Assembly: GCF_015206885.1 (NCBI RefSeq)
Contig: NZ_JADEXY010000016.1
Coordinates: forward strand, 1 to 41,357
DNA: 41,357 nt
DNA from: Microcystis aeruginosa LEGE 91341
Lineage (GTDB): Bacteria; Cyanobacteriota; Cyanobacteriia; Cyanobacteriales; Microcystaceae
Direction: 5' to 3'
Of this stretch, positions 33,184 to 36,957 are shown in pieces. How positions within the stretch are numbered: position 1 is the first letter of the stretch; each line of letters begins with the position of its first letter. The notes below the pieces were generated by a model. The model made no database searches and was not told where the DNA came from. It saw only the letters and a list, made by a program, of their open reading frames with translations. The position numbers and the translations under genes were made by a program.

Positions 33184-34533
33184 GTGACTTTTAACCCTCA
33201 TCATTGTCATAACGAAAGGGAAGTGGAGAGTAAATTCATTGTCCAGTATTTACTCCCCAAACTAGGCTACAATGCCGAACATTGGTATCAACAAGTTAGC
33301 TTCGGTAAAGTTCGCTTAGATTTCCTTGTTTCTGCTCAAAAACCTATCAACAAAAAGCAGTTTTTATCCTCTCACTGCCTAATTGTCGAGGCTAAAAATC
33401 CCAGAGAAAAGCTCATCAATCATCGTCATCGTTTAGGTTATTATCTCAACTACTTTAAAGTGCAGTGGGGATTATTAACTAATGGTGATGAGATTCAACT
33501 TTATCAAAGGAAACCCGATAAAATTTATTTAGTTTTTAGATGTTCTGGGTTAGAAATTGCCTCTCACTTAGAACAGTTAAAATCTCTGATTGGCTACGAA
33601 ACCTTATCCCTAGGTATTCCACCGCTCAATTCTCCAACAATCAACCACAGAAATCCCATGAAAACCATCGCAATTTATCATCATAAAGGTGGTGTTGGTA
33701 AAACCACCGTCGCTACCAATCTAGCGGCAGCTTTGAGCAAAAAAGGTAAGCGAGTATTATTAATTGATATTGATGCTCAAGCTAATAGTACCTTTGCCGT
33801 TGGTTTAATTAAGTTTCAATTCGACGATGACGATGATTTAAAAGATAAAAATGTCTTTCATTTACTCAATGATGGAGACATAACTTTTGTGCAAACTATT
33901 GTCAGAAAATCTCAGGGATTTAACCATCCAGAAATTGATGTAATTCCCGCTCATATTAGCTTAATTGAAAAACAAACTACCTTAACCAGATACGGAACTT
34001 CTAACACAAGATTATCTAAAAAATTAGATAAAGTTAGAGATGATTATGATTTTGTTATTATTGACACACCGCCATCCTTAGATTTTTATGCTCAAGCTGG
34101 TTTAATTGCTTCCGACTATCTGATTATTCCATCAGATCTTAAACCATTTTCTAATCAAGGTTTAAATAGTGTAAAAAATTTTATCAAGGAAGCAATTAAC
34201 GAAAGTCGTGAAAATTTAGGTAAAGAACCCCTAAAAATTTTAGGCGTTTTACCTTCTAAAATTTCTACCCATGCTCAATACTTAAGATTTAATTTTCCCA
34301 AACAAAAACAAGTAATTCCAGACAAATATGGTTTACCCTTGATGGAATCGACTATCTCGGAAAGAATGCCTTTATCTCGCTGTATAAATCAATCCGTTAC
34401 CGTGGGAGATTTAGAAATTCCTGCTCCCCAATCTATAATGGATTATGCCGAAAATCAAGGCGATGCGGGAGTATCAGCAGCAGAATTTGAAGCCTTAGCA
34501 CTGGAAGTTTTAGCTAAAATAGGAGTTAAATAA
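33184..34533 (+). CDS. Fusion of PD-(D/E)XK nuclease-like domain (HsdR N-terminal type) and ParA ATPase
   Basis: This 449-residue protein has two modules. Residues about 8-150 match the N-terminal nuclease-like domain of type I restriction HsdR subunits: Glu15 in E-V-E-S-K-F, Asp46 in V-R-L-D-F-L-V, and the E69-A-K71 signature in L-I-V-E-A-K-N-P, followed by L-L-T-N-G-D-E-I-Q-L-Y. Residues 159-449 are a complete ParA/Soj ATPase with deviant Walker A K-G-G-V-G-K-T-T (168-175), L-L-I-D-I-D-A-Q-A-N and Walker B F-V-I-I-D-T-P-P-S. The first start is GTG 33184; an in-frame stop lies at 33154-33156 and no clear ribosome-binding site is seen. An internal ATG at 33658 (Met159) starts exactly at the ParA part. 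The next gene begins at the base after the stop. DNA binding or cleavage is inferred. Confidence 0.8.
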   Translation: MTFNPHHCHNEREVESKFIVQYLLPKLGYNAEHWYQQVSFGKVRLDFLVSAQKPINKKQFLSSHCLIVEAKNPREKLINHRHRLGYYLNYFKVQWGLLTNGDEIQLYQRKPDKIYLVFRCSGLEIASHLEQLKSLIGYETLSLGIPPLNSPTINHRNPMKTIAIYHHKGGVGKTTVATNLAAALSKKGKRVLLIDIDAQANSTFAVGLIKFQFDDDDDLKDKNVFHLLNDGDITFVQTIVRKSQGFNHPEIDVIPAHISLIEKQTTLTRYGTSNTRLSKKLDKVRDDYDFVIIDTPPSLDFYAQAGLIASDYLIIPSDLKPFSNQGLNSVKNFIKEAINESRENLGKEPLKILGVLPSKISTHAQYLRFNFPKQKQVIPDKYGLPLMESTISERMPLSRCINQSVTVGDLEIPAPQSIMDYAENQGDAGVSAAEFEALALEVLAKIGVK

Positions 34534-35214
34534 ATGTGGGATTTTTTACTAATTGATTTACAGGACGTGGTAGCTACTAAAGAGCGTTCTTATTTTCCAG
34601 AAACAGATTTACACAACTTAGCTAATCTTATTGTAGCAATGAAGGGCTTAATGCGTCCTGTCATTCTCAAAAAAATTGGCTTTGAACGCTTCCAGATTAT
34701 TGAGGGAAATTTAGAGTATTATGCCTGTTTAATTGCTAAAGAAAAAGAACGCAGCCTAGAAACTATTAACGCTTTTGTGGTTGATAAAGAAGCGGAGAAT
34801 ATCGCTTTACAGCAAATGCAGTTATTATCTCCTTCTCCTGGGTTAATTACCACTTCTGAAAAAATAGATAATCCTCTAGAATTGAGGGTGAGTAATCTTG
34901 AAAAACGATTAGAAACCCAGTTACAAGCAATCCGAGAGGAGTACCAAAAAGAAATCAAAAGACTGGAAGAAAAAATTATTATTATTCTTCCTCCTCCTCC
35001 TCCTTCTTCTAAGTCGATTTTAGAGCTTTTGAATACCTGTGATGCTAATCAACTTAAAAAAGCGGGAATTCCACCGGCATCTGTTAATGACTTTCTGAAA
35101 AAACGTTCAGAAAAGCCCTTTGATTCTGTGGAGGATATACGCAAGCGACGAGTCAAGGGAATTGGGGAAGCAAGGTTGGCTAAACTTGTCGATTATCTGC
35201 TGACTTACAATTAA
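34534..35214 (+). CDS. ParB-like protein with coiled coil and C-terminal helix-hairpin-helix
   Basis: This 226-residue protein begins directly after the stop of the ParA fusion, so it is surely co-transcribed. Residues about 5-95 follow a ParB N-terminal layout (L-L-I-D-L-Q-D-V, then L-A-N-L-I-V-A-M, R-P-V-I-L-K-K, F-Q-I-I-E-G-N-L-E-Y-Y-A). The usual G-E-R-R segment is replaced by E-G-N-L-E, so CTP or phosphate contacts may differ. A coiled coil spans about 114-148, then five prolines (153-157). A helix-hairpin-helix domain at about 162-224 contains I-R-K-R-R-V-K-G-I-G-E-A-R-L-A-K-L, a non-specific DNA-binding motif. No central ParB helix-turn-helix is present. It probably works with the ParA fusion. 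A diverged copy of its last 18 codons lies at 36081-36134. Confidence 0.7.
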   Translation: MWDFLLIDLQDVVATKERSYFPETDLHNLANLIVAMKGLMRPVILKKIGFERFQIIEGNLEYYACLIAKEKERSLETINAFVVDKEAENIALQQMQLLSPSPGLITTSEKIDNPLELRVSNLEKRLETQLQAIREEYQKEIKRLEEKIIIILPPPPPSSKSILELLNTCDANQLKKAGIPPASVNDFLKKRSEKPFDSVEDIRKRRVKGIGEARLAKLVDYLLTYN

Positions 35215-35344: not shown

Positions 35345-36043
35345 ATGATAATTACCCCAGTAATAGCTGCTTCTTTAACAATTCCTCCCCTAGAAAACGG
35401 CGATAAATTAACTCGATGGGAATTTGAACGACGTTATCAAGGGATGCCCCATCTCAAAAAAGCGGAACTAATTGAAGGAATTGTTTATATGGCATCTCCC
35501 CTCAGATTTGAAAGTCACGCCGAGCCTCATGCTAATATTATCGGATGGTTAGCTCTCTATAAAGCGGCGACTCCAGGTGTTAGATTGGGTGATAATGCCA
35601 CCGTGAGATTAGATATTGATAACGAACCCCAACCGGATGCCCTATTAAGAATTGACAAGGGAGGACAATCGACAATTAGTCAAGATGATTATGTAGAAGG
35701 AGCGCCGGAATTAATTGTCGAAATTGCCGCTTCTAGTGCTTCCTACGATGTTCATCAAAAATTAAATGTTTACCGTCGCAATCAAGTCCAAGAATACCTA
35801 GTCTGGCGGTTTTATGAACAAGAAATTGATTGGTTTCGGCTACAGGCAGGAGAATATATTAAACTAGAACCCGATAGTGATGGCATAATGCGCTCCCAAA
35901 TCTTCCCCGGTTTATGGCTAGATAAAAACGCTTTATTAATGGGCGACTTAGGAAAAGTTTTAGTGATTTTGCAGCGGGGGTTAGAAACAGCAGAACATCA
36001 AGATTTTGTTAATAAATTAACTAGCGATCGCTCTCAAGTTTAA
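35345..36043 (+). CDS. Uma2 family (DUF820) putative endonuclease, intact copy
   Basis: This 232-residue member of the large cyanobacterial Uma2 family has a PD-(D/E)XK-like restriction-endonuclease fold; activity is rarely demonstrated. Visible core residues: Glu in A-E-L-I-E-G-I-V-Y, Asp in E-P-Q-P-D-A-L-L, and Glu in P-E-L-I-V-E-I-A-A-S-S, followed by the D-x-x-x-K-L-x-x-Y segment typical of the family. The C-terminal part (F-P-G-L-W-L-D) is also standard. It lies 130 bp after the ParB/HhH gene in the same direction and is duplicated at 36265-36957. Uma2 genes are multicopy in these genomes and often part of mobile or accessory regions. Biological role unknown. Confidence 0.85.
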   Translation: MIITPVIAASLTIPPLENGDKLTRWEFERRYQGMPHLKKAELIEGIVYMASPLRFESHAEPHANIIGWLALYKAATPGVRLGDNATVRLDIDNEPQPDALLRIDKGGQSTISQDDYVEGAPELIVEIAASSASYDVHQKLNVYRRNQVQEYLVWRFYEQEIDWFRLQAGEYIKLEPDSDGIMRSQIFPGLWLDKNALLMGDLGKVLVILQRGLETAEHQDFVNKLTSDRSQV

Positions 36044-36264: not shown

Positions 36265-36957
36265 ATGACAATTACCCCAGTAATAGCTGCTTCTTTAACA
36301 ATTCCTCCCCTAGAAAACGGCGATAAATTAACTCGATGGGAATTTGAACGACGTTATCAAGGGATGCCCCATCTCAAAAAAGCGGAACTAATTGAAGGAA
36401 TTGTTTATATGGCATCTCCCCTCAGATTTGAAAGTCACGCCGAGCCTCATGCTAATATTATCTGATGGTTGGCTCTCTATAAAGCGGCGACTCCAGGTGT
36501 TAGATTGGGTGATAATGCCACCGTGAGATTAGATATTGATAACGAACCCCAACCGGATGCCCTATTAAGAATTGACAAGGGAGGACAATCGACAATTAGT
36601 CAAGATGATTATGTAGAAGGAGCGCCGGAATTAATTGTCGAAATTGCCGCTTCTAGTGCTTCCTACGATGTTCATCAAAAATTAAATGTTTACCGTCGCA
36701 ATCAAGTCCAAGAATACCTAGTCTGGCGGTTTTATGAACAAGAAATTGATTGGTTTCGGCTACAGGCAGGAGAATATATTAAACTAGAACCCGATAGTGA
36801 TGGCATAATACGCTCCCAAATCTTCCCCGGTTTATGGCTAGATAAAAACGCTTTATTAATGGGCGACTTAGGAAAAGTTTTAGTGATTTTGCAGCGGGGG
36901 TTAGAAACAGCAGAACATCGAGATTTTGTCAAGAAACTAACTGCCAATCACAGCTAG
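36265..36957 (+). pseudogene. Uma2 family gene, second copy, interrupted by a nonsense codon
   Basis: This copy lies 920 bp after the intact one and is nearly identical for about 650 bp. Codon 67 is TGA (36463-36465) where the intact copy has GGA, a single G-to-T change, so the frame is cut into a 66-codon start and a 162-codon remainder (36469-36957). The split separates the first acidic residue from the rest of the predicted active site, so neither part should work. Only a few other substitutions are present. The last 15 or so codons diverge, as does the 3' flank. Confidence 0.9.

Follow-up and report, generated by a model that had tools for sequence, protein, structure and literature searches.

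A ParA ATPase with a restriction-type nuclease-fold head and a ParB-fold partner: a candidate DNA-surveying module in cyanobacteria

The stretch of DNA analysed here, 41,357 nucleotides from Microcystis aeruginosa LEGE 91341 (hereafter the window), encodes a protein in which a nuclease-fold head is joined in one frame to a ParA ATPase, and directly behind it a partner protein with a ParB-type fold. We propose that the pair constitutes an ATP-driven DNA-surveying module that carries a nuclease, probably for genome defence through the clearing of foreign or aberrant DNA, a reading that we hold tentatively and place a little below an even chance.

The gene pair and its nuclease-fold head

The fusion gene (33184..34533, 449 aa, GTG start; this and all features given below lie on the + strand) was delineated from its ORF, profiles and a structural model, as was the partner gene (34534..35214, 226 aa), for which structure matches were also used and whose ORF begins on the base right after the fusion ORF. 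Among the Pfam profiles, AAA_31 matches the ParA part clearly (3.9e-54), while HSDR_N_2, ParB_N and HHH_3 fall just below their cut-offs. An earlier note on this DNA had described an HsdR-type N-terminal domain with E15, D46 and E69-A-K71, a complete ParA ATPase in the same frame, and a next gene combining a ParB-like N-terminus, a coiled coil, five prolines and a helix-hairpin-helix (HhH), with no helix-turn-helix; this description is borne out by the profiles and models.

Residues 1–150 of the fusion (33184..33633) are modeled as a PD-(D/E)XK core with the order α-β-β-β-α-β, and the nearest structures are those of HsdR and type IIG/IIL restriction enzymes; the structure prediction that the note had recommended thus returns a putative nuclease core. 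The codons of E15 in the first helix (33226..33228), D46 (33319..33321) and E69-A70-K71 (33388..33396) are where the note had placed them, and the acidic and lysine residues are conserved across fusions. The 116 family proteins and 94 head-bearing rows hold repeats (e.g., L031/L173 and L038/L205), and residue counts are therefore quoted on 88 rows less than 90% alike: E69 and K71 are present in 88/88 of these non-redundant fusions, D46 and E11 in 87 and E15 in 83. An exception, L191, whose head is outside the 88-row count, has F46 and N71 in place of D46 and K71. Within the window's genus, dN/dS is lower in the head (0.12) than in any other part of the system, the ParA part having 0.24 (11 of the 12 genomes, L004 being left out). 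The head shares its fold and the E..D..E-x-K pattern with the HsdR N-domain and with type IIG/IIL nucleases such as BpuSI and DrdV; unlike in those enzymes, it is joined to ParA and not to a helicase or methyltransferase. On the reading proposed here, the head would cut DNA. PHROGs returns weak endonuclease-type matches to it, and one scan of viral contigs with the N-domain found no relative, hence spread by viruses was set aside as an explanation. One sequence match of the N-domain among solved structures, 7ue2 (RPB_PLP3_R6, 1.3e-5), is probably a designed repeat protein and was likewise discarded.

The ParA part (residues 159–449, 33658..34530) has an intact deviant Walker A motif with the signature lysine, KGGVGKTT (residues 168–175, 33685..33708), and K168 and K173 are found in 88/88 non-redundant fusions. 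Of the 116 family proteins, 99 entered a ParA tree. The remaining 17 comprise 10 from the window's genus that are near-copies or repeats, two repeats of other regions (L015 and L024), four halves of two split frames (L171 and L207), and one cut end (L029). The tree divides into a clade of 74 proteins, 54 fusions and 20 head-less forms, and a clade of 25, all fusions.

The earlier note had named as evidence against its idea homologues in which the N-terminal part is consistently absent or devoid of the key residues. The domain is indeed missing from 20 of the 99 tree rows, so that the head is optional rather than constant and the pair works without it, and the residues are kept in the fusions. 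The head-less forms correspond to ten changes on this quick tree, nine of which are forced by well-supported branches, and as judged from these sequences they arose most simply by repeated loss of the nuclease head, about ten times. A comparison of head-less L186 with L168 from the same genus gives a plain case of loss: the two align at 87% in the upstream gene and at 90% in the ParA-partner stretch, and the distance between these is 445 bases in L168 vs 15 in L186. Eighteen of the 20 head-less proteins begin at the residue equivalent to Met159 of the window's fusion, and the remaining two begin 1 and 10 residues earlier.

The start codon at the ParA boundary

Met159 (ATG, 33658..33660) is a predicted internal translation start from which a bare ParA would be made. 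At this boundary, which in clade II lies one column downstream, 128 of 130 fusions have an ATG or GTG codon, as do 87 of the 88 non-redundant ones; the two exceptions are L212 and its near relative L246, one of which is within the 88. Start-type codons occur in 0 to 4 of 88 rows in the adjoining columns and, TTG included, make up 4.7% of all codons. Where the boundary residue is Val, its codon is GTG in 6/6 cases, while the Val and Leu residues that replace Met in other Met-rich columns have mixed codons. Three of the GTG cases are tree sisters, and the GTG codons thus represent perhaps three or four independent changes.

A Shine-Dalgarno-like motif was defined as a piece of AAGGAGGT of at least four bases that ends 4 to 13 bases upstream of the codon. 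Such a 4-mer precedes the boundary codon in 55% of 87 fusions, compared with 12% for codons elsewhere in these genes and 14% in a control with shuffled linker codons. It is found in both deep clades (53% and 60%), and at annotated gene starts its frequency is 25%. In the 12 genomes of the window's genus, the window's own copy included, there is no such 4-mer at either start. The conservation of ATG or GTG, in conjunction with the enrichment of the upstream motif, points to a second, bare-ParA product, and we predict that the gene likely makes it from the conserved internal start. The earlier note had raised a short ParA-only form from Met159 as a possibility, and the start-codon pattern, the upstream motif and the GTG valines now lend it strong comparative support. 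Internal in-frame starts by which the C-terminal part of a protein is remade as a separate subunit have a reported precedent in Cas11 (PMC11899642); the proteins are unrelated, and the short ParA product is a predicted one here.

The partner protein and its matched allele classes

The ParB N-domain fold of the partner is recognized by profile and by structure match, and Pfam ParB_N, just under its cut-off in the window, is above it in the partners of L016, L025 and L027. For a central helix-turn-helix there is no Pfam match, and the model instead has a long helix, the coiled coil, at residues 115–151 (34876..34986). It is followed by a Pro153–157 linker evident in the sequence (34990..35004) and by an HhH tail at about residues 160–226 (35011..35211), which is assigned from a structure match and from HHH_3 and comEA (3e-5) matches under their cut-offs. 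The GERR box of ParB is altered: relative to a reference sequence, the commonest letters in 87 clade I partners are G-[HD]-[LF]-E (H or D in 68, L or F in 70, E in 72), which renders canonical CTP use by the partner doubtful. The ParB-type fold is preceded by almost no sequence, and in canonical ParB, as described in excerpts of PMC12462528, the ParA-binding motif is located ahead of the fold.

The tails vary among the 10 partners that were examined. The window's tail is HhH-like and that of L035 matches HHH_3 over the cut-off; L028 has a Rho_N match over the cut-off and L038 a HeH/LEM match just under it, and Pfam names no domain in the tails of L013, L018 and L030. When the partner profile was compared by sequence with solved structures, a tail protein, 9k3a, came out on top (3.1e-6), with Noc and ParB ranking behind it; PHROGs has no match for the partner.

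In combining a cyanobacterial ParA-type ATPase and a partner that has a coiled coil, the pair is reminiscent of carboxysome positioning by McdA/McdB, although that system differs in the fold and tails of the partner and in having no nuclease-fold head. Placement of the McdAB kind would mean that the partner holds a cargo, protein or DNA, which ParA positions, with the head as a leftover or docking domain. While the coiled coil and the sequence of the ParA part, which matches McdA chains (2e-12) about as well as it does some ParA chains, are in line with such a role, it is made improbable by the nucleic-acid-binding tails, by the near-invariant active-site residues of the head, and by the neighbour clusters, which show no recurrent cargo gene next to the pair.

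Within the window's genus (12 genomes), the gene upstream of the fusion is 96–98% identical in 11 genomes and the N-domain 93–97% identical in all. ParA residues 1–220 and 381–449 diverge by a few per cent and do not group the genomes, and residues 361–380 diverge slightly more. A ParA segment of about residues 226–360 (33859..34263) and residues 1–80 of the partner, within its ParB-type fold (34534..34773), each sort the genomes into three classes, with 4, 7 and 1 members. In 60-base windows, where the ParA segment spans residues 221–360, the divergence is 1 to 4% within classes and 16 to 55% between them, with class 3 differing further into the coil too; at the protein level, identity between classes is 62–67% for the ParA segment and 46–51% for the ParB fold, which is about as far as to other genera. 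In 12/12 genomes both segments belong to the same class, an outcome reached in 0.0003 of trials by random dealing (kinship ignored), and there is hardly any class signal in the stretch that separates them. A class match maintained across such a stretch suggests an interface that must match, and the simplest reading of these alignments is that ParA residues 226–360 and partner residues 1–80 form it and need matched versions. The HhH tail, of which at least three types can be discerned by eye in this genus, reassorts across the classes. In a second genus, g81, the class pattern was not seen among 21 fusions; all segment distances correlate there (rho 0.64 to 0.91), like plain descent.

A deflationary account of both observations would have Met159 be left over from an ancient joining of two genes, with no second product, and would put the classes down to sequence that recombination brought in by chance, in a genus whose members recombine freely. 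Such an account draws on the lack of a Shine-Dalgarno-like 4-mer in the window's copy and its 11 genus relatives, on the sister relationship of 3/6 GTG cases, and on a class pattern that is plainly mosaic and unseen in g81; however, the motif enrichment over shuffled linker codons in both deep clades, the invariable GTG at boundary valines and the 12/12 class match across an unlinked stretch count against it, and we regard it as unlikely.

Distribution, defence context and proposed role

The full fusion is present in 12/12 genomes of the window's genus at 86–100% identity, and the ParA family, head-less forms counted, in 123 of 388 class genomes and 65 of 159 genera (profile E≤1e-60); in g81, 24 of 26 genomes carry it. 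Broken copies in the class sample are those of G153 and G350, with a stop, and of G063, which is split. Among the matches listed for named genomes are fusions from Beggiatoa (L035) and Desulfobacteraceae (L034), both with partners, and 6 of the 8 closest named fusions among the matches listed are cyanobacterial. Directly behind 110 of the 116 family proteins there is a same-strand ORF of at least 90 aa, and at 84 of the 86 loci with longer flanks (L038/L205 being one region counted twice) the next gene belongs to a single partner cluster; the partner is missing at +1 in L209 and in L214, in the latter because the contig ends. The second-commonest neighbour cluster, by comparison, is found at 23 of these loci in scattered positions. 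The pair accordingly recurs as a two-gene system in distant genomes with mostly unlike neighbours, the check that the earlier note had called for.

The note's suggestion that the flanks are those of an accessory island did not hold, since all 12 genus genomes carry the locus, the upstream gene is conserved in 11 of them as detailed above, and a comparison of the fusion with plasmid records gave no match at E≤1e-30. The last result also speaks against plasmid partition; the partner has one weak match among plasmid records (Methylomagnum, 8e-4). Seventy phage records match the fusion, none covering over 80% of the query, and the best 20 of the 70 matches start at query residue 105 or later, so that it is the ParA part that is matched. 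Downstream of the pair, the window contains tandem near-identical Uma2-type genes (35345-36043 and 36265-36957), the second interrupted by a stop after 66 codons.

A chromosomal locus in 12/12 genus genomes, 0/12 of which have a canonical ParB gene above the profile cut-off, and with neighbours conserved within the genus, could signify housekeeping: a site-independent DNA-binding ParB-like clamp and ParA would organize the nucleoid or partition the chromosome by spacing genome copies, and the head would be a DNA-binding or repair accessory. We consider this possible but rather unlikely, as the family is absent at E≤1e-60 from 265 of the 388 class genomes, broken copies exist, class-matched interface alleles are unexpected for such a pair, and carriers have canonical ParB more often, not less (67/123 vs 105/265 at E≤1e-12, kinship ignored). 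General replacement of canonical ParB was rejected on this co-occurrence. In the window's genus, the canonical ParB profile weakly matches, apart from the partner, just a frame of ~93 codons (G000:C231:27149-27400), which recurs in most genus genomes.

Another ParA-type gene (beginning MGYVIATANMKGGVGKTT or alike), mostly on the opposite strand, accompanies the pair in both clades, near 12 of 62 and 3 of 24 loci. It is at -1 in L033, L145, L151, L156, L157, L159, L160, L164, L196 and L197, and nearby in L140, L144, L148 and L192. A gene that we read as glycosyltransferase-like is near 6/62 and 5/24 loci, one region being counted twice. In four clade I loci (L036, L037, L141 and L142) a lone second partner-family gene occurs two to six genes after the fusion; none of the family's ParA was seen adjoining it, and by eye it resembles clade II partners. 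The same genes near both clades, together with lone clade II-like partners in clade I loci, suggest that replacement has occurred at an ancient site on the chromosome.

In L181, L182, L185 and L208, a head-less ParA and its partner have a relative of the same methyltransferase on one side and a relative of the same helicase on the other. Profiles run on L208 and part of L182 identify a DrmMI-like methyltransferase and a GajB-like helicase in both, and in L208 additionally a DpdE/DrmD-like and a DruE-like helicase; in this content the GajB-like gene, which on our own reading carries a RelE part, precedes the DruE-like gene. These are the gene kinds of the ARMADA type II operon, which according to excerpts of PMC12458937 comprises a BrxHII-like helicase, a PglX-like methyltransferase, a YprA-like helicase and a RelE-GajB-like helicase; ParA and ParB do not appear as whole words in the main text of that paper. 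The fusion itself, in contrast, is outside such operons: an ARMADA-like helicase lies close to 4 of the 15 head-less loci but to none of the 71 fusion loci (some flanks cut by contig ends), and judged by this helicase neither the window's locus nor the 71 fusion loci qualify as ARMADA type II. The link to defence thus rests on the head-less copies. A close relative of the helicase (E≤1e-170) occurs in 22 genomes, with the pair adjoining in 4 when positions are compared; genome-wide, a helicase relative is found in 23 of 123 carriers vs 22 of 265 others (uncorrected for kinship and genome size), and this positive co-occurrence may reflect large genomes. PADLOC gives a ParA-level match, PDC-M28B, as its only hit on the window's pair.

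Two of the head-less loci have further peculiarities. The ARMADA-like operon of L208 (7022-10286) has two tandem head-less ParA genes, each then followed by a partner-type ORF (261 and 126 aa). In L182 (7878-9686) the methyltransferase is separated from the ParA pair by a HEC-05 family protein, named by PADLOC, as though the operon accommodated varying insertions at this position.

In the mechanism that we propose, one gene would give rise to two ATPases, the nuclease-headed long form and a bare ParA from the internal start, and by analogy with ParA both would bind DNA as ATP-bound dimers, mostly bare and some nuclease-headed. The partner would dimerize via its coiled coil, hold DNA through its replaceable HhH or SAP-type tail, and contact the ParA middle segment with its ParB-type fold, thereby triggering ATP turnover. 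The nuclease would in this way be delivered to partner-bound DNA, most likely for finding and clearing foreign or aberrant DNA. Counted for defence are the four head-less pairs in ARMADA-like operons, the deep allele classes at one locus and the uncorrected excess of helicase relatives among carriers; counted against the proposal as a whole are the head-less tree rows, the lack of the ARMADA-like helicase near fusion loci, the presence in 12/12 window-genus and 24/26 g81 genomes, which is steadier than that of typical defence genes, the lack of a Shine-Dalgarno-like 4-mer at the internal start in the window's genus, and the class pattern unseen in g81. A more specific form of the proposal, possible although we doubt it more, is a novel kind of innate genome surveillance, in which ParA assemblies would contain a minority of nuclease-headed subunits at a ratio set by the internal start and would be directed by a partner whose ParB fold is combined with exchangeable DNA-binding tails; the interface would then exist as matched allele sets under conflict-driven selection, exerted by phage or plasmid inhibitors or by the exclusion of foreign ParA/ParB.

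Compared with the ParABS systems (ParA/Soj, ParB/Spo0J, Noc and KorB), the window's pair has the same layout, a ParA with intact Walker motifs and a partner with a ParB-type N-domain directly behind. It differs in the nuclease-fold head of ParA, in being chromosomal with no plasmid match at E≤1e-30, and in partners that lack a helix-turn-helix or a ParA-binding extension before the fold, have an altered GERR box, and end in HhH or SAP-type tails. Joining of ParB-type folds to other domains has been surveyed for ParB-CTPase-fold fusions (PMC12704722); in the excerpts of that text, a DUF3850 fusion is the only one named as consistently beside parA, and HhH is unmentioned. A search of the open-licence PMC literature, where absence is a weak indication, found no combination of HSDR_N with ParA.

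ParA ATPases are known as movers of cargo. The present analysis describes a restriction-type nuclease fold on ParA as an old arrangement that is common in cyanobacteria and fit for the mixing of headed and bare forms. If confirmed, it would link partition motors to DNA destruction and add a candidate defence module that is missed by profile cut-offs in the window's proteins, and the matched allele classes would constitute a natural record of a ParA-ParB interface co-evolving.
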